Shown here: positions 36,246-61,648 of the stretch, one piece after another | How the letters are laid out: every line of letters starts with the position of its first letter | Numbering within the stretch: position 1 is the first letter of the stretch | NCBI GenBank assembly: GCA_022448955.1 | Contig: JAKVCU010000061.1 | Span: forward strand, 3,854 to 67,853 | Direction: 5' to 3' | From: Saprospiraceae bacterium | GTDB taxonomy: Bacteria > Bacteroidota > Bacteroidia > Chitinophagales > Saprospiraceae | Length of the DNA: 64,000 bases | The notes under the pieces: model-generated | Told to the model about the DNA's origin: nothing | Database searches by the model: none | What the model saw: the letters and a program-made list of their open reading frames with translations, nothing else | Made by a program: the position numbers and the translations under genes

Positions 36246-37121
36246 TCACCTCATGCCGAGCCAGCGCCGAATATTGGCTTGATTCATCCTCACAAATTCA
36301 TCTTTGCCCAACTCCTCTGCAATCTGCTTAGACTGCTGAGCATGCTGAATAGCTAAAGAGTAATTCCCTAGCTTTGCCTCCACTAAAGAGCGCACTCGAT
36401 GGATGTAATATTTGTCTCCAGCCAATTCATGTGCCTTTTGTAGCCATGCTTGGGCTTGCTCGAGCTCCAAGCCCTGTTCTTGCAAATACCTTGCGGATTG
36501 ATAGAAGGTATTAGCAGTAGGATTCGCCCCGATTTGTGCTTCTATCTCTTGCATCACCTTTGCATGCGTATCAAAAACGATAGTGAAGGCAATTTGTGTG
36601 TACTCCCATTGCCACTGCATAGACACACTTTGATGAGTAAAATGATCAAAATCTATTTGAAAACTCTCTTGACGTACTTTTAGTCGAGTTGGTTTTACTT
36701 GAATTCTAAGTGCATCTTCTTCTGGCTGATATTTATCCCTCCCATCTCCCCAATGGTTCGTATTTTTATGAAAAACAATCGTCCATTCTTCTTTTTCAGG
36801 AAATGCGTACAAGGCATATTCACCTTTCGGCAAAAAAGCACCATTAATCATGGCATCATCACTGATCCTAAATTTAGTAGATTCGTTCGCTCCTACCCGC
36901 CAAATTCTTCCATAAGGAACGATATTCCCCATGATCACTCGTCCTCGCATACTTGGACGACTATATATAAGTTCAATTTCAGATAAACCAACTTGCTGCT
37001 TCAGCATACATTTTGGACTGATCTTAGGAAAATTGATTTGTCCCTCTAATTTGGTAATCTTACCCACTACAAAAAGAGCAATTAAAAAACAAATGACTAA
37101 AAATAAATCTCTTGAACTCAT
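36246..37121 (-). CDS. DUF2911 protein with C-terminal helical repeats
   Basis: One N-terminal hydrophobic segment (about 5-21, signal anchor or signal peptide) is followed by a DUF2911 beta-domain (about 40-185: IELIYSRPSMRGRVIMG, VPYGRIWRVGANESTKF, GEYALYAFP, WTIVFHKNTNHWG) and a TPR-like helical region (about 205-285: YQSARYLQEQGLELEQAQ and YSLAIQHAQQSKQIAEELG). DUF2911 proteins are exported in Bacteroidota and have no known activity. A second DUF2911 gene lies two genes upstream in the same orientation; the 37128 gene ends 6 bp before this one starts. Confidence 0.9.
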   Translation of the reverse strand: MSSRDLFLVICFLIALFVVGKITKLEGQINFPKISPKCMLKQQVGLSEIELIYSRPSMRGRVIMGNIVPYGRIWRVGANESTKFRISDDAMINGAFLPKGEYALYAFPEKEEWTIVFHKNTNHWGDGRDKYQPEEDALRIQVKPTRLKVRQESFQIDFDHFTHQSVSMQWQWEYTQIAFTIVFDTHAKVMQEIEAQIGANPTANTFYQSARYLQEQGLELEQAQAWLQKAHELAGDKYYIHRVRSLVEAKLGNYSLAIQHAQQSKQIAEELGKDEFVRMNQANIRRWLGMR

Positions 37122-37127
37122 AAGAAT

Positions 37128-37421
37128 CTACTTTTTTAATTTTCTATGAAAATACCCTTGCCGCATTCGGAAAGCCCATTTTCCTCCCTTATGCTCTACT
37201 GCAGAACCCAACAATTCTTCACAATTAGGGCATCTTAAATGCGGTACATCCTTTACTTTGTTAAAATTAGTCTGCTTCAATGCTGCTAATGCTGATGGTG
37301 ATTCAATACGATGAAAATATAATCTTAAAATTCCTTTCCCTGCGCCATACTTATGATAAGTTAGCACGAATGCTGAACATTTTCCACAATGAATATCAAA
37401 AACCTTATACTTCTGCCCCAT
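37128..37421 (-). CDS. Small zinc-ribbon-like protein, about 97 aa
   Basis: Two Cys pairs (HCGKCSAF near the N-terminus and LRCPNCEELL in the middle) suggest one zinc site; the C-terminus is basic (MRQGYFHRKLKK). I place the start at the ATG at 37421 (MGQKYKVFDIHC). The open frame reaches an ATG at 37463, but a terminator hairpin of the upstream gene occupies 37456-37481, and the extra 14 residues would overlap it. Cytoplasmic. Function unknown; it lies between two DUF2911 genes. Confidence 0.75.
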   Translation of the reverse strand: MGQKYKVFDIHCGKCSAFVLTYHKYGAGKGILRLYFHRIESPSALAALKQTNFNKVKDVPHLRCPNCEELLGSAVEHKGGKWAFRMRQGYFHRKLKK

Positions 37422-37455
37422 TCTTAATTTTTCTAATTGGCTTGAATATAAAAAA

Positions 37456-37481
37456 CCTATCACTCTTAATAGAATGATAGG
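37456..37481 (-). terminator. Rho-independent terminator of the DUF2911 lipoprotein gene
   Basis: CCTATCAcTC (37456-37465) pairs with GAaTGATAGG (37472-37481), with one mismatch and a 6-nt loop. On the minus strand the stem is followed by a T-run, 33 bp after the stop at 37514. Confidence 0.7.
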
Positions 37482-37513
37482 TCCTGAGCCATCAAAACGC
37501 TCTTATTTACATC

Positions 37514-38146
37514 TTAGACTGAAATACCAATAGGAATCGCTCTATCTGCCCAGCGAAGAATCAGTTGATTACCTTCAATAACGAAATCCATTTTTTCAAT
37601 AGACTCTTCCAATATCTTGGGAGCTACCTCCACTCTAATAGCATCTTTCTCTTCATCATAATCATATGCTCCCCATTGCTCGTATTCCTTATTAAAGATA
37701 ACCGTAGACTGCTCTTTTTTATTTAGGGTAAATAGAGCATATGTACCAGCAGCTAATGGTTGACCTTCAATGACTACATCGCCACCTAGAGTTATAGTTG
37801 TAGCCTCATTTGCTCCTGTACGCCATACTTTCCCATAAGGTACTAATCCTCCCCAGATAACTCTGTCTTTTACAGAAGGACTTCCATAAACTAGGCTTAT
37901 ATCCACTCCACTTATTTGTCCTTTTAATTCGACTCTTGGACTTGGAATACCATCTTTTACCACAGTATAGCTGGGTTCAGAAGAAGAGTCGGTACTTTGT
38001 ACTTCCCCCACATTATCGGCTGGCGCTTCTTGTTCTTGGGTTTGAACTGTTTCTGCACTTTCAGTTGTAGCTGTATTGCCTCCCCCACATGCAGTTATCA
38101 AGACCATTAAAACTAAAAGAAAGGGCAAAAAATAATTTTTCATCAT
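37514..38146 (-). CDS. DUF2911 lipoprotein
   Basis: The leader ends in ITAC, so the protein is a predicted lipoprotein. An acidic, Thr/Glu-rich linker follows (about 21-65), then a DUF2911 domain (about 70-205: ISGVDISLVYGSPSVKDRVI, VPYGKVWRTGANEATTI, AGTYALFTLN, STVIFNKEYEQWG). It is clearly a paralogue of the DUF2911 domain encoded at 36246-37121 but has no TPR part. Function unknown; position in the inner or outer membrane cannot be decided. Confidence 0.9.
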   Translation of the reverse strand: MMKNYFLPFLLVLMVLITACGGGNTATTESAETVQTQEQEAPADNVGEVQSTDSSSEPSYTVVKDGIPSPRVELKGQISGVDISLVYGSPSVKDRVIWGGLVPYGKVWRTGANEATTITLGGDVVIEGQPLAAGTYALFTLNKKEQSTVIFNKEYEQWGAYDYDEEKDAIRVEVAPKILEESIEKMDFVIEGNQLILRWADRAIPIGISV

Positions 38147-39646: not shown

Positions 39647-40465
39647 ATGATTATTTTTCAAAATACATCACTAACGGTATATCAAAGCGTATTGTACCAG
39701 ACGAATAGCAGCATCATCTCTCTGGAGCAGTCTGTAATCCTAGTTGACCCGACCTGGCTACCTTCAGAAATTCAAAAAATCAAGCACTACATTGCTACTG
39801 AACAGGCCAATAAGGAATTATATATTTTTTTTACTCATTCTGACTATGACCATATCCTAGCTTACAATGCTTTTCCTAATGCAACTACTATAGCGTCTAA
39901 AGCTTTTGTTGAAAGAACAGATCAAGAGAAAATTCTAGAACAAATCAAAAAATTTGATGATGAATATTATATCCAGCGTCCTTACCCTATCACTTATCCA
40001 TCTATAGATATCGTGATTGATCAACCCACTCAAAGGATCACTATTGATAATGTACAACTCCACTTTTATAAAGCAGCAGGGCACACTTCTTGTGGATTAT
40101 TCTTAGTCCTACCCGAACAAGGAGTATGGATTGCAGGAGATTATCTAAGTGATATTGAGTTTCCTTTTATATATGATTCACTAGAAGCTTATAAAGATAG
40201 CATGCACACTGCTCATTACTTATCAGAAAAATACGATATCAAGCTACTCATTCCCGGACATGGCAGGCCTTGTTATAATAATGAAGAAATCAAGAAAAGG
40301 ATTTACGAAAGTGAAGCCTATCTGAACGATTTAACAGAAGTGAAAGAAGGAGACCTAAGCAAAAACACTGAGAAATGGACGAATCGCTATCCATTTCCAA
40401 AGGGCCTAGTAAAAAGTCATTTGGATAACTGGAAACTCATTCATCACCATTCATCCAGCAGTTGA
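39647..40465 (+). CDS. Metallo-beta-lactamase-fold hydrolase
   Basis: A cytoplasmic MBL-fold enzyme of 272 residues. Metal ligands are visible: HSDYDH (H64, D66, D68, H69), AAGHTSCG (third metal His), AGDYLSD (bridging Asp) and LIPGHGRPC (last His). This is the general hydrolase/glyoxalase-II-like type; the substrate is unknown. Its last 22 bp overlap the end of the opposite gene (40444-40465), an unusual convergent overlap. Confidence 0.88.
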   Translation: MIIFQNTSLTVYQSVLYQTNSSIISLEQSVILVDPTWLPSEIQKIKHYIATEQANKELYIFFTHSDYDHILAYNAFPNATTIASKAFVERTDQEKILEQIKKFDDEYYIQRPYPITYPSIDIVIDQPTQRITIDNVQLHFYKAAGHTSCGLFLVLPEQGVWIAGDYLSDIEFPFIYDSLEAYKDSMHTAHYLSEKYDIKLLIPGHGRPCYNNEEIKKRIYESEAYLNDLTEVKEGDLSKNTEKWTNRYPFPKGLVKSHLDNWKLIHHHSSSS

Positions 40466-41163
40466 ATAGCTAATTGCTGAAACTTAGACGACTTTTTAGT
40501 TATTTCCATGAGTTGTTCTCTTGCACTATCTTTTTGACCATCTTGTAAAAAAGCCATAGCTATATACCACTCAGCTGGATCATGTAGGTCAGACTGTTCC
40601 GAGTTTAGCACCTCTTTTAGAAAAGGCAATGCCTTTGTAGATTCTAAATTGCCAATATAGGATATGGCCAAATAAAAATTATAATATTGATTAGTCTTAT
40701 CTATCGTACTTAATCCTTCAAAAGCCTTAGCCGCCTCTTCAAAATTTTGGTTGGCATAATGATAATTAGCTTCTTCTATCACTGAATCATTAGCTTCTCC
40801 CCGATCAACAAAACCTAACTTATAGGGTTCAAAGTAATTAGCAAACAATTCTTCTGTACTGGGAGCAGCAAACCATTGCAAGTTATAAAGAGTAACGACC
40901 AATAATGCTACAGTCGCAGCCACCAACAATAGCGGTCTTAGTCTTAATGTTTTCTTTTTTGGGAATAGCTCTTTTTCTACTTCATCAAAAAGCGATTCCA
41001 TGGCCATAGCCTTCTTATCATTGATAGCTATTTTCAATCCTTTATATAGATTTACATCCTTTGCAAAACTTTCATCCTCTTGAAACTTTCGTTTCAACTC
41101 GGCATGTTCTCCTTGCTGCAAAAATGCTTCTATTTCGTCATACTTATCTTTTTCCTCCATCAT
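40444..41163 (-). CDS. Membrane TPR protein coupled to an ECF sigma factor (putative anti-sigma)
   Basis: The cytoplasmic N-terminus (about 1-72) is acidic and helical (DKYDEIEAFLQQGEHAELKR, EDESFAKDV), one membrane helix spans about 77-97, and the periplasmic part (about 105-239) contains TPR-like helices (ANYHYANQNFEEAAKAFEGL, YNFYLAISYIGNLESTKALP, AEWYIAMAFLQDGQKDSARE). The gene overlaps the sigma factor gene by 4 bp (ATGA), so translation is coupled. This is the position and topology of an anti-sigma factor; the N-terminal sequence fits the Bacteroidota type that lacks a zinc motif. The role is inferred from context. Confidence 0.8.
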   Translation of the reverse strand: MMEEKDKYDEIEAFLQQGEHAELKRKFQEDESFAKDVNLYKGLKIAINDKKAMAMESLFDEVEKELFPKKKTLRLRPLLLVAATVALLVVTLYNLQWFAAPSTEELFANYFEPYKLGFVDRGEANDSVIEEANYHYANQNFEEAAKAFEGLSTIDKTNQYYNFYLAISYIGNLESTKALPFLKEVLNSEQSDLHDPAEWYIAMAFLQDGQKDSAREQLMEITKKSSKFQQLAIQLLDEW

Positions 41164-41753
41164 AATAATTCATTGTAAAGCTCATCCGATCGTATTAAGG
41201 AAATTAATTTTTCTTTGCACTGAAATTTTCTTTTTTTAGCATATTGCACGCTACCAAAATTTAATTTTTGGGCGATTTCTTTCATAGGTGTACCATTAAA
41301 AAATAACTCTAGAACTTCTTGGCATCCAGTACTTAACTCTCCAAATTTCTTCCTAAATAATCGGTATTGGCTTTCACGATTAATGTCACTAGCCAATTCA
41401 TCAACGATCATTAGTTCTTCTTTTTCTAAAAAGGTAACCCTCAATTTCCTTTTTTTCTCTAATCGCTTTAACCATAGGTTTTTGCTTATAGCAAAAAGGT
41501 AAGTATAAAAAGACGATGAAAGATTAAATAAAGGGTTCTTAGCTTTTTGATATAAAATGAGTAATGATTCCTGAAAGATATCACGCCCATCTTCTTCGGA
41601 GCCTTTATTATTTTGAATAAAAAAAGAAATGCCTGGAAAGTAATTGGTATAAATATATTTTATGACATTTCGATCCCCTTCGCGGAGACCGGTCAGCAAC
41701 TCCTCCTCTGATAGCATAAATTGGTTAGACTGATGTGTAATAATTTTTTCCAT
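41160..41753 (-). CDS. ECF-type RNA polymerase sigma factor
   Basis: A 197-residue sigma-70 family protein with region 2 (about 25-95: YTNYFPGISFFIQNNKG, DGRDIFQESLLILYQKAKNP, YLFAISKNLWLKRLEK) and region 4 (about 135-190: TGCQEVLELFFNGTPMKEIA, LNFGSVQYAKKRKFQCKEKL). It is the first gene of a two-gene unit with the TPR membrane protein and is divergent from the secreted protein/CHAT genes, which are candidates for its regulon. Confidence 0.9.
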   Translation of the reverse strand: MEKIITHQSNQFMLSEEELLTGLREGDRNVIKYIYTNYFPGISFFIQNNKGSEEDGRDIFQESLLILYQKAKNPLFNLSSSFYTYLFAISKNLWLKRLEKKRKLRVTFLEKEELMIVDELASDINRESQYRLFRKKFGELSTGCQEVLELFFNGTPMKEIAQKLNFGSVQYAKKRKFQCKEKLISLIRSDELYNELL

Positions 41754-41982
41754 GTGGTTAAGAAAAGCATTACAATAATAGGCAAGAAATCAAACATTTT
41801 TACCAAAATTTTGACTTTGATCTTAAAAATTTCATTTTTCACCCATTTTCAGGGTAACCTTTTAAAAAAAAACAGAATAAAGGAAAGAATTCAGTAAACA
41901 CCTGAAATCCATAATAATCACAAAATTAAATCTCAGTCAGCATAAGTTGGTTCTGAAAAAGATTAAAACCTATTATTTCGTA

Positions 41983-42043
41983 TCGGGACTTTGTTAATTC
42001 ATCAAAAGAAAACAGTATAACACCTAAAACTACAAAGTCCCGA
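41983..42043. promoter_or_regulatory. Perfect 12-bp inverted repeat between sigma factor and CHAT operons
   Basis: TCGGGACTTTGT (41983-41994) and ACAAAGTCCCGA (42032-42043) are perfect inverted repeats separated by 37 bp. The repeats are GC-richer than the surroundings and both are flanked by TTTCGTA-like text. The pair may be two operator half-sites or a long-loop transcript hairpin controlling the secreted protein/CHAT genes or the sigma factor. Confidence 0.55.
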
Positions 42044-42097
42044 ACTTTTTCGTATTAAACCGTAATATTATTCAACTGAAGAAACCCATTTCTTTAT

Positions 42098-42105
42098 TAT
42101 TTTTG
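42098..42105 (+). promoter_or_regulatory. Candidate -7 element before the secreted protein/CHAT genes
   Basis: TATTTTTG fits TAnnTTTG and ends 42 bp before the start codon. No TTTG was seen at -33, so use of an alternative sigma factor or an activator bound at the inverted repeat is possible. Confidence 0.4.
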
Positions 42106-42147
42106 TTTCGGTTTATCTACTCTCATACATTATTAAACTAACTTTTC

Positions 42148-42705
42148 ATGAAAACCACTATGATTTTGCCTTTATTGCTATCACTCATAATTATTACTTC
42201 TGCTTCAAAAGATAAAGCAAAAGAATTATCTAGTGATAGGGAAGAAATCGCAGAAACTGCACATAAAACACCTCCTTTCATAGAATTAAGCGGCCCCAAG
42301 GCCTATAAAGTCAAAGTAAAGAAAAAATCTGTGGGATATAGTGGTGAGCAAACCAAAACATGTATTCCTTCTAACGACTGTTTCTGTACAGAGCAAGCAG
42401 CAGCCCCTTCTCCAGGCATGTATATCCAAGCAGAGTTGGAACTTCAAAATACAGTGTCCACTAATGCTACAGATGTAACCTTTACTTTTTTCTATAAACA
42501 AAATGGTCTTTGGGTAAGACAAATGAGCGATCCAAAAACATTTACGCTCCCTGCCGTAGGTACAGAAAAAATAGAGGATACAGGAGATATGTTACTATAT
42601 GATAGCCTAGTTTTCCCTGATTCTATAAAGATGCAAGTTAATTCGCCTAATACCATAGGTAATACGGGACTTGACACATTAATACTCACTAAATGCTCTA
42701 ACTAA
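42148..42705 (+). CDS. Secreted Cys-containing protein upstream of a TPR-CHAT gene
   Basis: Not recognised. A signal peptide (about 1-19, ending ITSA) leads to a mature protein of about 166 residues. A basic stretch (KAYKVKVKKKSVGYSGE) and a Cys cluster (CIPSNDCFC) are followed by a beta-rich part (MYIQAELELQNTVS, VTFTFFYKQNGLWV, SIKMQVNSPNTIGNT) that resembles one immunoglobulin-like or CARDB-like sandwich, and a last Cys in TKCSN. It is 46 bp before the CHAT gene and almost certainly in its operon, so it may be a substrate, inhibitor or ligand of that protein. Confidence 0.75.
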   Translation: MKTTMILPLLLSLIIITSASKDKAKELSSDREEIAETAHKTPPFIELSGPKAYKVKVKKKSVGYSGEQTKTCIPSNDCFCTEQAAAPSPGMYIQAELELQNTVSTNATDVTFTFFYKQNGLWVRQMSDPKTFTLPAVGTEKIEDTGDMLLYDSLVFPDSIKMQVNSPNTIGNTGLDTLILTKCSN

Positions 42706-42751
42706 AGAATACTGACCATAGCCATCAAAACTTAAACTTAAATAGCAGAAA

Positions 42752-45700
42752 ATGATGCTATTCATTAATAAAAGACTATTTTCAAGAGGTTTGCAAAAAT
42801 GCAAATCTCTTGTTTTATTATTAGTCTTTTTTATAGTTATTCCTACCCTTTGGGGGCAAACACCCTTGCAAGAAAAAATTGATTCTCTCATCAAATTAGA
42901 AGATACCGCCCAGGTACTTGAGCTCTTGAATCAATTACCTACTCATGCGCCATTTGACCTTTGGATAGAGCACCGAAAAGCGATGGTTGATTATATTCAA
43001 CAAGATTATGATGCAGCACTGAAAACACTAGACAAATTAGAAATAATAGCACCTCAACAGCTTTTGCCTAATGATAAACAGATAGGAGAAATTTATAAAG
43101 CCAAAGCTGAAAACTATCTCAATAAAGGCGCATTTGAAAAGAGTACTACCTATTTTCAAAAGTCAATCAACTTTAATAAAAACATAAAAAACTGGGAAGA
43201 TATATGTTATGCATATGCAGGTCTTAGCATTATTGCGCTACAAAAAGAGAATTGGTCGCTTATGGAAGAATACTTGAATCAAGTAAGTCCGATCGCGAAT
43301 AAAAATCTAGCTACAAACCATGATTTTTTCTCTGTCCTATATTCTTTATATATTAATATTTACGATGCAAATGGCGATTATGAAAAAGCATTACTCTATG
43401 CTCAAAATGCAGTGGACTTTCAAACCAATAAGGGTCTCTCCAATTCGTTAGATTCGTTTCTTTTTGCCTATGACCTCAATAACTTAGGTGGTATCTTAGC
43501 ATCTATGGGAGAATTTGAGAGAGCAGTACAATTATTTCGTCAATCCTATACACTTGAAACAGCCACCTCAGAAGCATCCCCTGATTGGTCAATAACACAC
43601 CTCAATATTATATATTGTTACATGGAACTAGGGAATTGGGAAAAAGCACTCTTCCATGTCAATGAAGTCGAAGAATTCCTCAAAGATTTCCCATCTGAAA
43701 TAACAGCAGAACCTTACTTTCAAAACATTACCCATAAGGCAACCATCTATAAAGAAATGGGTAGATACCAAGATGCTATTAGCACTGCCAAAATCACTGC
43801 AAAAAAGGCAGCACCAAGTCTACAAAAAACAGCTAAACTAATCATTGCGGAGACCTATTTGCTCATGGGTAAATACCAAACGAGTCTTGAAGTATTTAAA
43901 TCGCTCCCCCTAAATGAAAGCTTTCGTATGAAAGAACGAAGTTTCTATCTCAGAAACTTAGGACTAGTCTACACCCAATTAAATGATTTTGAAAAAGCAG
44001 ACAGTGTTTTTCATTTACTAAAAAACTTAGTTCTTCCAAATGAGCAGGATCCCTCCCCTGCACCTGGAGACTATCTAAAATATGTATGGGCAAAGGCAGA
44101 CTGTGCATTCAAAAAATGGGAACAAAATCCCAACGCCCTCCAAGAACTGATATCTTCGAATGCATTTTACGAAGAAGCCACAAATATCATCTATCAGATC
44201 CAAAGTGGTTACTCATCAGCTAAAGACAAGCAATTTTTGCTTAAAGAAACTCGCAACAGATTTGAAAAAGCAATACAAATTGCTTCTAAACTACATGAAA
44301 TAACCCAAGAGTCAAAATACTTATTAGCAGCCTTTCAACTTTCAGATCAAGCAAAAACCATCCTTTTACAAGAAAGAATACAGAGTAGAAATATCAGAAA
44401 TAAAAGCCACATTCCCCTCAAACTTGTAAAAAAGGAGCAAGCACTAAAAAGAAGACTTATTTTTTATGAAAAAAAATACTACGAAGAACAACTTAAAGCG
44501 ACCTCTGACTTACTAAAAACCTCAAAATGGGAAGAAAAAATTTATGCCATAAACGCTGAGCTTGAAATACTCCATCAAGCATTAGCCCCTTATCTTGATC
44601 CTTCTTCCATGGAAACCATTCAAACCTTTTCAGAACGTGAAATCGACCAATTAAAAAAACAAAAAACGAATTTAGTCAGTTACTTCTGGGGACAAGAACA
44701 ACTATATATTTTTCAAATTAAAGAAAATATAAAGCTTGACATCTTACCTTTAACAGCATCTTTTAAGGCAAATCTCACCCAACTTATTTTTTTATGCCAT
44801 AGCGTTCCTGATACGGATATTGCTTCCAGTTTTGAGCAATTTACAAGCCTTAGCCATCGGTTTTATCAACACCTTTTTCCCGAGCTTTCTTCACAAAGAG
44901 AAAACCTAATTGTTATTCCAGACGGATGGCTAAACCAACTACCTTTTGAAGTTTTACTTACTGCTCCTTACAATCATGCCGAAGTTAGATATGACCAGTT
45001 GAATTATTTATTAAAGCAAACAGCTATTTATTATCTATATTCAACTGCATTTTTGAATAAACCTAGTACGCAGTCGTTATCTTCCGTTCAATGCCTAGCT
45101 ATGGCACCTTTTTCTATATCAGATAAAAAATCTGCAGACCATTTTTCCCAACTTAAATTAAAGTCCACCAGTCTTCCTGGTACACAAAAAGAATTAAAAG
45201 GTATTGCTCAATATTTTGATGGAAAATTCCAATTTGGAAATACAGCGACGGAAGCTTTTTTTAAAGAAAATGCTGGCCAATATGATTTATTACATTTGGC
45301 AATGCATGCAAAAGCAAACCTGAGCAATCCCATGTTTGGCCAAATGTATTTTTCTACAACAGAGAATACCGATGAGAATGATACCCTTTACAGTCACGAA
45401 CTCCAAAATATTCAATTAAAAGCAAAGTTAGCAGTTCTTAGTGCGTGCGAAACAGGTCTAGGAATTGCGACAGAAGGTAATGGTATCGTCAGCATAGCTA
45501 GCCATTTTTTTGAAGCAGGCTGCGAGAGCGTAACCATGAGTTTGTGGGAGGCGCAAGATGATGCCACTAGTCAGATTATGCTGAATTATTATCATTATTT
45601 AGCGAAAGGAATGCCTAAGAATAAGGCTATTCAAAAGGCAAAACTAGAGTATCTAGCACATCCTTTTCATCAACAGCATCCATTTTTCTGGTCTAGCTTT

Positions 45701-45814
45701 GTTCATTTAGGTGACGCCAGCCCTCTCACTTCTTCATTCCCCAGTAATTGGATGATCATTTGTATAGGGTTATCAGTAATCGCTAGCCTATTTATGTTTT
45801 ATTACAAAAAATAA
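42752..45814 (+). CDS. Exported TPR-CHAT protein (predicted caspase-like protease), membrane-anchored
   Basis: A 1020-residue protein. The N-terminal hydrophobic segment (about 20-35, then LWGQ) is a signal peptide. Residues about 36-420 are TPR repeats (for example GAFEKSTTYFQKSINFNK, YEKALLYAQNAVDFQTNKG, WEKALFHVNEVEEFLKDF). A helical linker is followed by a CHAT domain (about 690-990) with the catalytic pair H852 (LLHLAMHA) and C899 (LSACETG), and typical EGNGIVSIASHFFEAG and SLWEAQDDAT. One membrane helix (about 998-1016) and a YYKK end anchor it. Topology predicts the TPR and CHAT parts in the periplasm. CHAT proteins are caspase/separase-related peptidases; here the partner is probably the secreted protein encoded upstream. 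Confidence 0.88.
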   Translation: MMLFINKRLFSRGLQKCKSLVLLLVFFIVIPTLWGQTPLQEKIDSLIKLEDTAQVLELLNQLPTHAPFDLWIEHRKAMVDYIQQDYDAALKTLDKLEIIAPQQLLPNDKQIGEIYKAKAENYLNKGAFEKSTTYFQKSINFNKNIKNWEDICYAYAGLSIIALQKENWSLMEEYLNQVSPIANKNLATNHDFFSVLYSLYINIYDANGDYEKALLYAQNAVDFQTNKGLSNSLDSFLFAYDLNNLGGILASMGEFERAVQLFRQSYTLETATSEASPDWSITHLNIIYCYMELGNWEKALFHVNEVEEFLKDFPSEITAEPYFQNITHKATIYKEMGRYQDAISTAKITAKKAAPSLQKTAKLIIAETYLLMGKYQTSLEVFKSLPLNESFRMKERSFYLRNLGLVYTQLNDFEKADSVFHLLKNLVLPNEQDPSPAPGDYLKYVWAKADCAFKKWEQNPNALQELISSNAFYEEATNIIYQIQSGYSSAKDKQFLLKETRNRFEKAIQIASKLHEITQESKYLLAAFQLSDQAKTILLQERIQSRNIRNKSHIPLKLVKKEQALKRRLIFYEKKYYEEQLKATSDLLKTSKWEEKIYAINAELEILHQALAPYLDPSSMETIQTFSEREIDQLKKQKTNLVSYFWGQEQLYIFQIKENIKLDILPLTASFKANLTQLIFLCHSVPDTDIASSFEQFTSLSHRFYQHLFPELSSQRENLIVIPDGWLNQLPFEVLLTAPYNHAEVRYDQLNYLLKQTAIYYLYSTAFLNKPSTQSLSSVQCLAMAPFSISDKKSADHFSQLKLKSTSLPGTQKELKGIAQYFDGKFQFGNTATEAFFKENAGQYDLLHLAMHAKANLSNPMFGQMYFSTTENTDENDTLYSHELQNIQLKAKLAVLSACETGLGIATEGNGIVSIASHFFEAGCESVTMSLWEAQDDATSQIMLNYYHYLAKGMPKNKAIQKAKLEYLAHPFHQQHPFFWSSFVHLGDASPLTSSFPSNWMIICIGLSVIASLFMFYYKK

Positions 45815-47119: not shown

Positions 47120-48523
47120 TTATAATTGTCTACGAATACCTAAGGAAAGTCCAGTGGTGAAATATCGCTGCCTTACCGCAAAATTTTCGTTGGTGAATGA
47201 TTTTGGATAAATTTTAAAATAAGGTTCGATCAATAATGAAACCTTATTATCTAAGCGGTATTGAAAGCCCAAACTTCCATACCATCCCAAGCCCAGTTGT
47301 TTTTTGAACGCTTTTATTCCATCAGGATCATTTGATGAAAAACTAATTGGTTGTAAATTTGTAGGGGATAGAAAAGATCCTTTTTGTCTAAAACTTAGGT
47401 TGAAATAAGGCCCTGCATTAATAGAAAATGCAAATTTATCATAATACAACTCATAACCTACGATAAGGGGTAGATCTAAGGTTTGGAATCTATTGTGTGT
47501 CGTACGAATTCTGGTTCCATATTCGGTTACTGTATCCATCCCAATAACCTCTCCTAAAGAATTGGTGATTTTTATAATTTCAGTACGCTCGTAATTTTCA
47601 TCAATATGTTCAAATTTTTCATTGATTTGAGAATAACTTATACCGCTTCTCATGACAAATCCCATTCCCGAAACTACAGACATACGGAGTGCCGCACTAT
47701 ATGCAAATACGGATTTTTCAGATACCTCCCTTGCCCAAACATAATCATTGTACTCCGCATTTTTAGGGCTCATTTCGCGTAAAGCGATATCGGGAGATAG
47801 TATAAAGTCAATAAATAATTGGCCTTTTTTAGGGCCAAATTTCGCACACTCTGTATCTGTAATTCTTAACTCATCCCCTAAAGTGTAATTCGTTTCTAAG
47901 CCCTTCCAATCATTAGACAATAATTCTACGGCAAGTGTATTTTCTTTTTGAACATTAAGAGATATAGATTCATTTGATTCTGAGGAACTAGTAGAACCTT
48001 CTATAATTACAATTTCCTCCTGCGCCAAATTAGGATACACCGTAGTTGCCAAGTCATCCTCATCGATGCGGATAGTTGGAGCAATCAATAGGATTTCTTC
48101 TTGCTGAGTGGAAGTAATAGTAGTTGGTATTGGAGAAGTTGGTATGCTTGTTGAAGTAAATACTCCGGTTGTTGATGCAGTATTTACTTCTTTTGGATGA
48201 TTTGAAAAAGTCGGAGCTGGGATTTCCAGATTAGCTTTCTCTGGTTGATCAGCAACTAATTGGGCCCTTTCAGCTTTTGCTAAGGGGATTGGAAAATGAT
48301 TAATACTTTTGGATAAATCGGAAAATAAGCTGACTAAAGTAACCAAACAAATAGCGAAAGTAGATACAGTATAGACGAGCCATTTTAGCCTTAAATGATT
48401 AGACAGCTTATGCCTCCAATCTCTTTTTTGATCGATACGATTCCATATATCCATTGGTGGTTCCAGACTGTAGTGTTCCAGTCTTTCACTAAACGCTTTA
48501 TCTGTAGGGTGTCGTCGATTCAT
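47120..48523 (-). CDS. Anti-sigma-like N-terminus, one membrane helix and C-terminal beta-barrel in one protein
   Basis: Residues 1-45 are a soluble N-terminus with EPPMDIWNRIDQKRDWR, the short motif typical of proteins encoded directly after Bacteroidota sigma factors. A membrane helix spans about 47-67. Then comes a low-complexity Thr/Ser/Pro/Ile linker (about 85-215) and a beta-rich C-terminal part (about 225-467) with alternating strands (YSAALRMSVVSGMGFVMRSG, FAFSINAGPYFNLSFRQKG, YGSLGFQYRLDNKVSLLIEP, YFTTGLSLGIRRQL) like outer membrane porin-family barrels. If both parts work, the chain spans from cytoplasm to outer membrane. The gene overlaps the sigma factor gene by 4 bp. Confidence 0.85.
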   Translation of the reverse strand: MNRRHPTDKAFSERLEHYSLEPPMDIWNRIDQKRDWRHKLSNHLRLKWLVYTVSTFAICLVTLVSLFSDLSKSINHFPIPLAKAERAQLVADQPEKANLEIPAPTFSNHPKEVNTASTTGVFTSTSIPTSPIPTTITSTQQEEILLIAPTIRIDEDDLATTVYPNLAQEEIVIIEGSTSSSESNESISLNVQKENTLAVELLSNDWKGLETNYTLGDELRITDTECAKFGPKKGQLFIDFILSPDIALREMSPKNAEYNDYVWAREVSEKSVFAYSAALRMSVVSGMGFVMRSGISYSQINEKFEHIDENYERTEIIKITNSLGEVIGMDTVTEYGTRIRTTHNRFQTLDLPLIVGYELYYDKFAFSINAGPYFNLSFRQKGSFLSPTNLQPISFSSNDPDGIKAFKKQLGLGWYGSLGFQYRLDNKVSLLIEPYFKIYPKSFTNENFAVRQRYFTTGLSLGIRRQL

Positions 48524-49056
48524 ACTGCCACCTTTTGTAGTTCTATGATTTTTTGCTGCAACAATTTTCTAGCTTTCACCAATTGAGAACGAGAAGTACT
48601 TTCTTGAATACCGATCATATCTGCAATTTCTCTATGAGAATAGCCCTCCACAGCATATAAATTGAATACCAAGCGGTATCCATCTGGAAGTTGAAGGATC
48701 AAATTCATCAACTCCTCTTCATGCAAGTGCCCATATATACTAGGCTCAAGTGCTTTTTCAGGGACATGCTCTACTCCGATTTGTTCGTTCTTAAAACTTT
48801 TTTTACTGTAATTTTTGAGTGCGGTGTTAATCACAATTCTACGAATCCAACCTTCGAATGAACCTTTGGATTCAAACTTAGAAATGTTATCAAAAATTTT
48901 GATAAAAGCATCCTGTAGAATATCTTCAGCTTCCATCTGATGCCTAGCATAACGTTGACATACCACCAACATTTTTCCTGCGTAACGCCGGAAAAGCTCT
49001 TGCTGGCATTTTCGATTTTCTCGCAAACAGCCCTTAATGAGTTCTTTTTCTGTCAC
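48520..49056 (-). CDS. ECF-type RNA polymerase sigma factor
   Basis: A 178-residue sigma-70 protein with region 2 (about 20-90: YAGKMLVVCQRYARHQMEAE, ILQDAFIKIFDNISKF, FEGWIRRIVINTALKNY) and region 4 (about 120-172: LPDGYRLVFNLYAVEGYSHR, IADMIGIQESTSRSQLVKAR). It is the first gene of an operon with the membrane/barrel protein and probably the lipoprotein. Its sequence is distinct from the other sigma factor at 41160, so the two systems are independent. Confidence 0.94.
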   Translation of the reverse strand: MTEKELIKGCLRENRKCQQELFRRYAGKMLVVCQRYARHQMEAEDILQDAFIKIFDNISKFESKGSFEGWIRRIVINTALKNYSKKSFKNEQIGVEHVPEKALEPSIYGHLHEEELMNLILQLPDGYRLVFNLYAVEGYSHREIADMIGIQESTSRSQLVKARKLLQQKIIELQKVAV

Positions 49057-58729: not shown

Positions 58730-61648
58730 ATGAAAAACGAAAACTTAACAAAAAAAGGGGTAGGAATAATATGGATAATAATATTAGTTATGCATAACTC
58801 CTTTGCTCGGATCAATTGTCATGGCGACAAGTTTTATTCGAAAGGTCAGAAATTCGAACATCAAAATCTAGATAGTGCAATTTTCTATTACAAATTAGCA
58901 TTAAGAGATTTCATTAGATGTACAATAATTGGTGGACAACAAAAAGCACTCACTCAATTATACTGGCAGTACTATCAGCACGGTGATTTTGAAAAGGCAG
59001 GTGTATATCTAGAAAAAAATATAAACCTTCACAATAAAAATACTTTTGAAAAAGATTTACATTATGCTAACTACCTAGAAACTATTGCTTCAAAACTTCA
59101 GTTGGAAGGCAATCTCTCCAAAGCTCAATATTATTACAAAAAAGCTATCGCGATGAAGGAAGATATTGTGGTCAAACAGTCGGACTTAGTACATTCTTAT
59201 TTCAATTTAGCTTTATTGTATTTCAGCTTGGGTGAGTTTAAACTTGGATTGGAATTATTGGAAAAAACTATTCTAATCATTGAAGAAGAGCCAAATAACG
59301 ATTTGGGAGAATTAGACTTGGCTTATATTTTGAATACTTATGCCACTTATTTAAATCATTTAAAAAAAGAAAATGCATTTTCATTTTTTAAAAAAGCTGA
59401 GAAGATATATGATAGTTTAAAAAGTAATGAGTACGTCGCAGGAGATAAACTTGATTTTTATGCTTCTTTTATCCCTTGCTTGATTAAACGAAAAGACTTT
59501 AATGAAATAAATAAAATTATTGACAAAGCCAATGATTTGATCCGTAGCTATCCGGATGCCCCATATAAGTTTTACTACTATAACTCTTTAGGTAAAGCCT
59601 TTGCTGAAAAAAAAGAACTTAACTTGGCTCGGCAATACTTCACAAAGTCAAAAATAGATGTATTAGCTCAGCATAAGGAAATAGAAAAATACTTTATCAC
59701 GGCTATGCACATCTATGACCTTGCGAAATTTGAATTTCTGCATGGAGATATCATCGCTGCAAAACAAGAAGTACAAGAGGCCTTAATAAAATTATCCTTT
59801 GATTATTACAATTCTAATCTTTTCAGTAACCCAGCGGTAGGGAAAATTATTAAAAATATTGAATCATTAAAAATACTAACGCTTAAAGCCCAAATTCTTC
59901 AAGCACTCTATCAATCATCCAATAACGTAAAAGAGCTTCAAGCAGCCTATGATACTTACCAATTGGCTGCAGACTTAGCGAAGCTAATCCGTCAGGATAT
60001 TATGACACAGGGTTCCAAACAGAAGCTAGCCGGGGAAGTATTGCCAATCTACGAAGGTGGAATAGAAACAGCTCTAGCTTTATACAAATTGACCCAAAAA
60101 GATCAATACAAAAATATGGCCTTTCAATATGCAGAAAGTAATAAAGCGATTTTATTATTAGAGTCTATGAACGACAATGACGCGAAGAACTACTCTAATA
60201 TCCCCGATTCTTTATTGGAGAAGGAAAATGAATTGAAAATTGAAATCACATTTTATGAAAAAAAGATCAATCAGAAAAGATCAAAAAAAGAAAACATTGA
60301 TGAGGAGAAAATCAAAAATTGGGAAAGTATACTTTTTGACCTCAACACCAAATATCAAGCACTTATCACACTGTTAGAGGAACAATACCCCAAATACTAT
60401 GAGTTAAAACATAATACTAAGCTGACTACACCACAGGCATTACAGTACGAGTTGTTCAATTCAAGCGATGCCTTAATCGAGTACTTTGTAGGAGAAAAGA
60501 ACATTTATGCTTTTATTATTTCAAAGAATGATTTTCTTATTACAACTATTCAAAAGCCCAAAAACTTCCAAGAAGATATTGATCTTTTCCTTTACCATAT
60601 TAAAAGACCTGGTAAGACAGATACCGATTTTCGCTTAAGCCTAGAGATGCAGCATGACTATTATCTGAAATACCTGCAGCCAGCTATACATTTGTTACCC
60701 TCTTCCATTAGCCGATTAATTATCATCCCTGATGATAAATTCAATTATATCCCTTTCGAACTATTGATTACCTCTCCTATCCCTGCAGAGGAAACCCGCT
60801 TTAGTCCTAAAGAACATGATTATCTTTTTGAACGCTACATCATGACTTATGACTATTCTGCAACATTACTCCAGAAAAGTTATGAACAAAAGAAAAAAAG
60901 AAAAGCAAAAAATATACTATTAGCTATGGCTCCCAACTTCAATAAAAACACTATTGCTTCCCATCAACATCAAGAGAGGGCCTGTACTATTTTTGACATC
61001 TATGATCTTGCTTGCTCGGATAAGGAGGTACAAGAGATTGCAGCGCTTATGGGAGGTGATTATTTTATCGGCCAAGATGCAGATAAGGCAACTTTTGAGA
61101 AGATTGCCAAAGATTATCGCATACTCCATTTAGCTACCCATTCCTGCCCAGATGAGGAAGATCCCAACTTCAGCAAAATATTCTTAGCAGACGAAGCAAT
61201 AACCAATTATGATTTATTTAACTACGAATTTAATGCCGATTTGGCTGTGCTGAGCGCATGTAATACTGGTTTTGGAAAACTGGTCAAAGGGGAAGGTATC
61301 ATGCCGCTTTCTAAAGGTTTTATACAAGCAGGTATACCAAGTACCGTGATGAGTCTTTGGCCAGTAGATGATTGTGGTACATCAAGGATGATGAAATTGC
61401 TCTACTATTATTTAGATGAAGGATTTTCGAAAGACGAAGCTTTACAAAAGGCAAAACTGGATTTCGTCCAAAATGCAAACGCCGTTTATCAGCACCCTTA
61501 CTATTGGTCTGCATTCATCCATATGGGAAACTTTGAACCTATTCATGAAAAATCAGGCATACCGCCTGTAGTTTGGTGGATAACTGGTGGACTTGCCATT
61601 CTTGGCCTATTTGGCGTAAGCAGAAAAAGAAGGAAGCAGGCTGCCTAA
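58730..61648 (+). CDS. Second exported TPR-CHAT protein (predicted caspase-like protease)
   Basis: A 972-residue paralogue of the protein at 42752. The signal peptide is about 1-27 (GIIWIIILVMHNSFA). TPR-like repeats fill about 35-420 (YYKLALRDFIRCTIIGGQQK, LEGNLSKAQYYYKKAIAMK, LNLARQYFTKSKIDVL). A charged helical linker (about 500-560) is followed by the CHAT domain (about 580-930) with H804 (LHLATHS) and C844 (LSACNTG), EGIMPLSKGFIQAGIPSTV and SLWPVDDCGT. The C-terminus has a membrane helix (about 946-962: WWITGGLAILGLFGV) and a basic end (SRKRRKQAA), like short envelope-sorting tails. No small partner gene is adjacent. It overlaps the convergent gene by 4 bp. Confidence 0.88.
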   Translation: MKNENLTKKGVGIIWIIILVMHNSFARINCHGDKFYSKGQKFEHQNLDSAIFYYKLALRDFIRCTIIGGQQKALTQLYWQYYQHGDFEKAGVYLEKNINLHNKNTFEKDLHYANYLETIASKLQLEGNLSKAQYYYKKAIAMKEDIVVKQSDLVHSYFNLALLYFSLGEFKLGLELLEKTILIIEEEPNNDLGELDLAYILNTYATYLNHLKKENAFSFFKKAEKIYDSLKSNEYVAGDKLDFYASFIPCLIKRKDFNEINKIIDKANDLIRSYPDAPYKFYYYNSLGKAFAEKKELNLARQYFTKSKIDVLAQHKEIEKYFITAMHIYDLAKFEFLHGDIIAAKQEVQEALIKLSFDYYNSNLFSNPAVGKIIKNIESLKILTLKAQILQALYQSSNNVKELQAAYDTYQLAADLAKLIRQDIMTQGSKQKLAGEVLPIYEGGIETALALYKLTQKDQYKNMAFQYAESNKAILLLESMNDNDAKNYSNIPDSLLEKENELKIEITFYEKKINQKRSKKENIDEEKIKNWESILFDLNTKYQALITLLEEQYPKYYELKHNTKLTTPQALQYELFNSSDALIEYFVGEKNIYAFIISKNDFLITTIQKPKNFQEDIDLFLYHIKRPGKTDTDFRLSLEMQHDYYLKYLQPAIHLLPSSISRLIIIPDDKFNYIPFELLITSPIPAEETRFSPKEHDYLFERYIMTYDYSATLLQKSYEQKKKRKAKNILLAMAPNFNKNTIASHQHQERACTIFDIYDLACSDKEVQEIAALMGGDYFIGQDADKATFEKIAKDYRILHLATHSCPDEEDPNFSKIFLADEAITNYDLFNYEFNADLAVLSACNTGFGKLVKGEGIMPLSKGFIQAGIPSTVMSLWPVDDCGTSRMMKLLYYYLDEGFSKDEALQKAKLDFVQNANAVYQHPYYWSAFIHMGNFEPIHEKSGIPPVVWWITGGLAILGLFGVSRKRRKQAA

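Follow-up and report, generated by a model that had tools for sequence, protein, structure and literature searches.

The window (the whole 64,000-nucleotide stretch of a Saprospiraceae bacterium genome that was analyzed) carries a locus in which an ECF-type sigma factor gene and the gene of a one-helix TPR membrane protein overlap by 4 bp (ATGA), and lie across a divergent region from genes for a small secreted protein and a large TPR-CHAT protein. These four genes and their features had been described in an earlier note on this DNA, and all of them are present where it placed them:

40444-41163 (-): TPR membrane protein gene, anti-sigma-like, 239 aa (alignment, zf-HC2 in two family members, model)
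40450-40788 (-): predicted periplasmic TPR domain, residues 126-238 (domain searches, model)
40801-40848 (-): juxtamembrane periplasmic element LFANYFEPY...R121, residues 106-121, candidate cleavage region (family alignment)
40879-40935 (-): single TM helix, residues 77-95 (hydropathy; modelled helix 73-97)
40936-41163 (-): cytoplasmic putative sigma-binding (ASD-like) part, residues 1-76 (alignment, co-variation with sigma)
41160-41753 (-): ECF-type sigma factor gene, 197 aa (TIGR02937 above cut-off; adjoins the anti-sigma gene in most modules)
41754-42147: divergent intergenic region, 394 bp, partly kept in the congener
41853-41863 (-): AAAAGGTTACC motif upstream of the sigma gene, a lead only
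42148-42705 (+): small secreted protein gene, 185 aa, clustered Cys, lineage-specific accessory
42752-45814 (+): TPR-CHAT gene, 1020 aa, product predicted to be exported and membrane-anchored
42752-42859 (+): signal peptide-like N terminus, residues 1-36 (hydropathy; likewise in 37/41 module CHATs)
44855-45715 (+): CHAT domain, residues 702-988 (Pfam PF12770)
45305-45307 (+): catalytic His852 (LHLAMHA)
45446-45448 (+): catalytic Cys899 (LSACETG)
45749-45805 (+): C-terminal membrane helix, residues 1000-1018, tail KK (hydropathy)

The sigma protein has sigma-70 region 2 and region 4 only, as is characteristic of ECF sigma factors, and passes the NCBIfam model TIGR02937 (sigma70-ECF; 48.3 bits, cut-off of 42.9), while its scores for Pfam sigma-70 r2 and r4_2 fall under the Pfam cut-offs. 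The TPR membrane protein looks like a putative anti-sigma factor of the ASD/zf-HC2 type, with an N-terminal domain of the sigma-binding type, one TM helix, a predicted periplasmic part and an ECF sigma gene next to its own. Alignment of the family gave a helical N-terminal part with the pattern IExYLxxxLxxxExxxFExxLxxD, one TM helix, an LFAxxFxPY...R element and TPRs, and two family members matched the zf-HC2 anti-sigma zinc finger. The structure predicted from two sequences has confident TPRs (pLDDT ~90), the TM helix and a low-confidence helical N terminus. R121 is near-invariant among 27 aligned homologues, and LFANYFEPY is identical in the Winogradskyella protein (locus L101), the overall identity of which to the window protein is 27%. 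R121 is no more than a candidate for a fixed cleavage site, because the element is also found in anti-sigma homologues without a CHAT gene nearby and because Craspase orthologues cut at non-conserved sites (PMC11106740).

The TPR-CHAT protein matches PF12770 with E=3.6e-51 (174.8 bits, curated cut-off of 24), together with several TPRs, and a CHAT profile made from these loci matches the solved Craspase Csx29/TPR-CHAT chains as well as 8rot, another CHAT protein. The His852/Cys899 pair is invariant across 37/37 linked CHAT proteins. Two hydrophobic segments were found, at residues 17-35 (then LWG-QTP) and 1000-1018. By hydropathy and signal-peptide shape, an N-terminal export segment was scored in 37 of the 41 module CHATs (exceptions include contig-edge fragments) and a C-terminal helix in 27 of the 41. 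Linked CHAT proteins are therefore nearly all predicted to be exported, and the possibility raised by the earlier note that the CHAT protein stays in the cytoplasm was not borne out. The AlphaFold model of the CHAT protein, made from two sequences, has a pLDDT of 38, too low for use. No CHAT-anti-sigma fusions were found among the long CHAT proteins inspected, and exported CHAT proteins without a sigma/anti-sigma pair also occur. PADLOC defence models returned only a generic TPR model (4e-5) for the TPR-CHAT protein and no match for the other three, and no Cas7-11 effector gene was seen among the genes flanking the locus.

The small secreted protein (Cys72/78/80/183) has no match in Pfam, NCBIfam or PADLOC, and among the relatives searched the congener alone has counterparts, two copies in tandem at the equivalent position, one of which starts like a lipoprotein. 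Other modules either encode an unrelated protein ahead of CHAT or lack such a gene; the unrelated proteins comprise a thiol-activated-cytolysin-like lipoprotein (two genera), type IX sorting domain proteins and an M43 peptidase with SprB repeats, and about ten of the 41 modules have an accessory secreted gene at all. The secreted protein was for this reason rejected as a core part of the module and is regarded as accessory, and the proposal that it is the substrate or inhibitor of the protease found no support. The two cytolysin-like proteins (L043:11647-13473 (+) and L045:4961-6763 (-), in two related genera) are 55% identical to each other and lie directly before the TPR-CHAT gene, so that a pore-former-like gene adjoins a caspase-like protease gene; the cytolysin domain PF01289 matches the L043 protein with E=3.4e-36.

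Genomes across Bacteroidota were compared. The window's genome has eight CHAT matches, six of them strong, and for five of these six an ECF sigma/TPR anti-sigma pair is encoded at most a few kb away. Among the relatives searched, anti-sigma matches repeatedly adjoin CHAT matches, the number of which reaches 27 per genome. When 40 loci were picked on CHAT score alone and then checked for the pair, 18 had it at a distance of <=6 kb. A profile of the anti-sigma family recovered homologues across the phylum, and in 37 genomes selected for clear homologues a CHAT gene lies within 8 kb of 53 of the 69 anti-sigma homologues, as compared to ~0.75 expected by chance, by which a chance neighbourhood was rejected. 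CHAT is encoded in 34/37 of these genomes versus 97/198 in the phylum sample. Winogradskyella (L101) is a named case of the module. CHAT is not always needed, as three genomes have the anti-sigma protein and no CHAT. On the CHAT-domain tree, linkage takes 11 changes versus 22.5 in shuffles (0/500 as low), which marks the pairing as long-lived, with several losses or regains. Judged by sequence, the ECF sigma factor, the one-helix TPR anti-sigma protein and the exported, anchored TPR-CHAT protein are a unit widespread in Bacteroidota. The four-gene neighbourhood that the earlier note had put forward is thus kept far beyond close relatives in its sigma, anti-sigma and CHAT genes, rather than lacking conservation, and is genus-specific in its secreted gene.

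In 40 of the 41 modules from relatives, CHAT is encoded on the strand opposite to anti-sigma, either head-to-head (22) or tail-to-tail (18), and in the latter the gene ends often touch or overlap; same-strand layouts occur elsewhere in the phylum. The pair is split in some family-f37 genomes, in which the CHAT gene lies between anti-sigma and sigma (L113:8741-14184 and L121:8491-13531). For roughly one in four anti-sigma homologues there is no CHAT gene nearby, and some of these homologues adjoin TonB-dependent receptor, efflux or OmpA-type genes. Four pairs without CHAT (L106:9378-13358, L110:8144-12071, L050:9533-14811 and L111:9456-12919) have as their divergent neighbours a TonB-dependent-receptor-like barrel gene, HlyD/OEP efflux genes or the gene of a TPR-PD40-OmpA protein.

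Within the locus itself, two AAAAGGTWACC sites lie in opposite orientation, at 41429-41439 (+) inside the sigma gene and at 41853-41863 (-) before it, and AAARGGTWACC has only 16 matches in the whole genome. The shorter GGTWAC was found upstream of 17/65 sigma genes versus 5/76 CHAT genes, several of the latter five matches probably being within the preceding gene. GGTWAC was rejected as a regulon signature, its matches in the genome being mostly intragenic. The divergent gap also holds a perfect 11-bp inverted repeat (CGGGACTTTGT at 41984-41994 and ACAAAGTCCCG at 42032-42042); as a sigma promoter this palindrome (41984-42042) was rejected, since it is unique in the genome and is not kept in the congener.

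Co-variation between the parts was estimated from distance matrices of 42 modules as partial correlations in which the other three parts were controlled for. The strongest between-protein edge, sigma with the ASD (partial r=0.53), is as expected for a sigma factor and its inhibitor. The anti-sigma periplasmic part had a partial r of 0.24 with the CHAT catalytic domain (p=0.012) and of 0.02 with the CHAT TPRs, and the ASD had a partial r of -0.05 with the periplasmic part of its own protein. Raw correlations and within-genome permutations gave the same direction. Shared inheritance is not fully removed, as the effect is modest and other edges are similar in size (sigma-periplasmic part 0.23, sigma-CHAT domain 0.19). 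The co-variation therefore supports, short of proof, a tie between the periplasmic part of the anti-sigma protein and the catalytic domain of CHAT, and none with the CHAT TPRs.

We suggest, at about even chances, that the sigma factor is freed when the CHAT protein cleaves its anti-sigma protein in the periplasm. With its cytoplasmic N-terminal domain, the anti-sigma protein would tether the ECF sigma to the inner membrane, and it would display the juxtamembrane LFAxxFxPY...R element and its TPRs to the periplasm, while the exported TPR-CHAT protein, anchored in the same membrane by its C-terminal helix, would face the same compartment as these TPRs. An envelope signal would be received by CHAT's own TPR region, and the activated cysteine protease would cut the periplasmic part of the anti-sigma protein in a site-1-type cleavage, as DegS does on RseA. 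General intramembrane and cytoplasmic proteases would then complete its degradation and free the sigma factor. The parts, their topology pattern, the linkage, the invariant catalytic pair and the co-variation are read from sequence, and from them we infer the cleavage, the direction of its effect, the signal and the regulon. Support for cleavage comes from the linkage, the predicted shared compartment, the invariant His/Cys pair, the co-variation, the clustering on the CHAT tree, the match of the CHAT profile to the Craspase TPR-CHAT structures and the precedents of Csx29 and CalpL; against it stand the modest size of the co-variation, the unlinked anti-sigma homologues, the three genomes that have the anti-sigma protein and no CHAT, the presence of the juxtamembrane element in unlinked homologues, and the exported CHATs without the pair. 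The more general proposal of the earlier note, a periplasmic protease circuit around the ECF sigma/anti-sigma pair, gains support from the wide linkage and the predicted export of CHAT.

The main rival to cleavage of the anti-sigma protein by CHAT is that CHAT is instead an output, which we consider possible but rather doubtful. The anti-sigma TPRs would then sense the envelope signal themselves, and the freed sigma would transcribe the TPR-CHAT gene (and accessory secreted genes), the protease having other targets. This would agree with the shared divergent promoter regions in about half of the modules, with the genomes that have a sigma/anti-sigma pair and no CHAT, and with the homologous pairs beside a TonB-dependent receptor or HlyD/OEP efflux operon, which resemble a sigma factor beside its targets. 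However, GGTWAC is enriched before sigma genes and not before CHAT genes, and a purely transcriptional link does not require the periplasmic part and the CHAT catalytic domain to co-vary. That co-variation would fit any contact between the two, including one in which CHAT is inhibited or anchored by the anti-sigma TPR domain instead of cutting it; the real target of the protease would then be elsewhere (e.g., a secreted or pore-forming partner specific to the lineage), and sigma would report CHAT release. The cytolysin-like lipoprotein gene before CHAT in two genera points in this direction, but so few modules carry an accessory secreted gene, and the known protease/anti-sigma/ECF trios are protease-substrate pairs (PMC10028731, PMC11417357), that we regard this as unlikely.

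The earlier note had suggested that the TPR parts of the two proteins sense one partner. In such a shared-sensor model this partner, perhaps the secreted protein, would set both sigma release and protease activity. Both proteins do carry TPRs in what is predicted to be one compartment, and the secreted gene lies between the two here and in the congener. The near-zero correlation between the two TPR-bearing parts, set against that with the catalytic domain, does not support this idea, and elsewhere the genus-specific secreted gene is absent or replaced by unrelated proteins, which makes a shared sensor very improbable.

Proteolysis of anti-sigma factors at site 1 and site 2, to which PMC10028731 refers, is established for RseA-DegS-RseP and RsiW. 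DegS is a PDZ serine protease. The module resembles RseA-DegS-RseP in its layout: the anti-sigma protein has one helix and a domain in the periplasm, and the protease (a putative role here) is periplasmic and anchored in the inner membrane. It differs in that the protease candidate is caspase-like, with a catalytic cysteine and TPRs, and is linked genetically to a sigma/anti-sigma pair of its own. Bacterial gasdermin-associated CHAT proteases are cytoplasmic defence systems. As in these, CHAT adjoins a substrate candidate, and a gene for a cytolysin-like pore-former is present in two related modules, whereas no gasdermin was seen here. In type III-E CRISPR systems, the TPR-CHAT protease Csx29 cuts Csx30, the inhibitor of the ECF factor CASP-sigma (PMC10028731), and in both cases TPR-CHAT, sigma inhibitor and ECF sigma are co-encoded. 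In the cytoplasm, Cas7-11 together with target RNA activates Csx29 (PMC10028731), whereas here CHAT is predicted to be exported and anchored and is encoded with a membrane-spanning anti-sigma protein that carries TPRs; no adjoining CRISPR partner was seen. The statement of the earlier note that known TPR-CHAT proteases are cytoplasmic and sensor-activated was imprecise, in that an anti-sigma protein is already the target of Csx29, the closest precedent (PMC10028731). A protease likewise cuts the inhibitor of an ECF sigma in CalpL/CalpT/CalpS, with all three in one genetic unit as here; CalpL, however, is a Lon-type protease with a SAVED domain, is triggered by cA4, and has no membrane anchoring described in the accessible part of its report (PMC11417357).

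The sigma/anti-sigma/exported-CHAT pairing is apparently undescribed: a search of open-licence full texts on CHAT found the CRISPR systems and no earlier description of the module, a mention in ECF classification tables being possible, and no stated function for exported Bacteroidota CHAT proteins was found in the open-licence literature. Exported CHAT proteins are abundant in this phylum, and linking many of them to a sigma/anti-sigma pair gives each a predicted substrate and a predicted output. More tentatively, at somewhat below even chances, this could be phylum-wide envelope signalling, in which the exported, anchored CHAT would serve as a dedicated site-1 protease for its co-encoded TPR anti-sigma, in several paralogous copies per genome, and the Csx29/Csx30/sigma trio would apply the same logic in derived or parallel form. 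If true, caspase-like control of transcription would reach from CRISPR to the cell envelope.

Elsewhere in the window, a second exported TPR-CHAT gene (58730-61648 (+), 972 aa) has no sigma/anti-sigma pair adjoining, and a 241-aa gene with no Pfam match overlaps its end on the opposite strand. At 47120-49056 (-), another ECF sigma gene overlaps that of a 467-aa protein in which an internal hydrophobic helix is combined with a domain resembling an outer-membrane beta-barrel, and the two may be a sigma/anti-sigma-barrel pair. Two DUF2911 proteins are encoded near each other at 36246-38146 (-), one of them with a C-terminal TPR extension.
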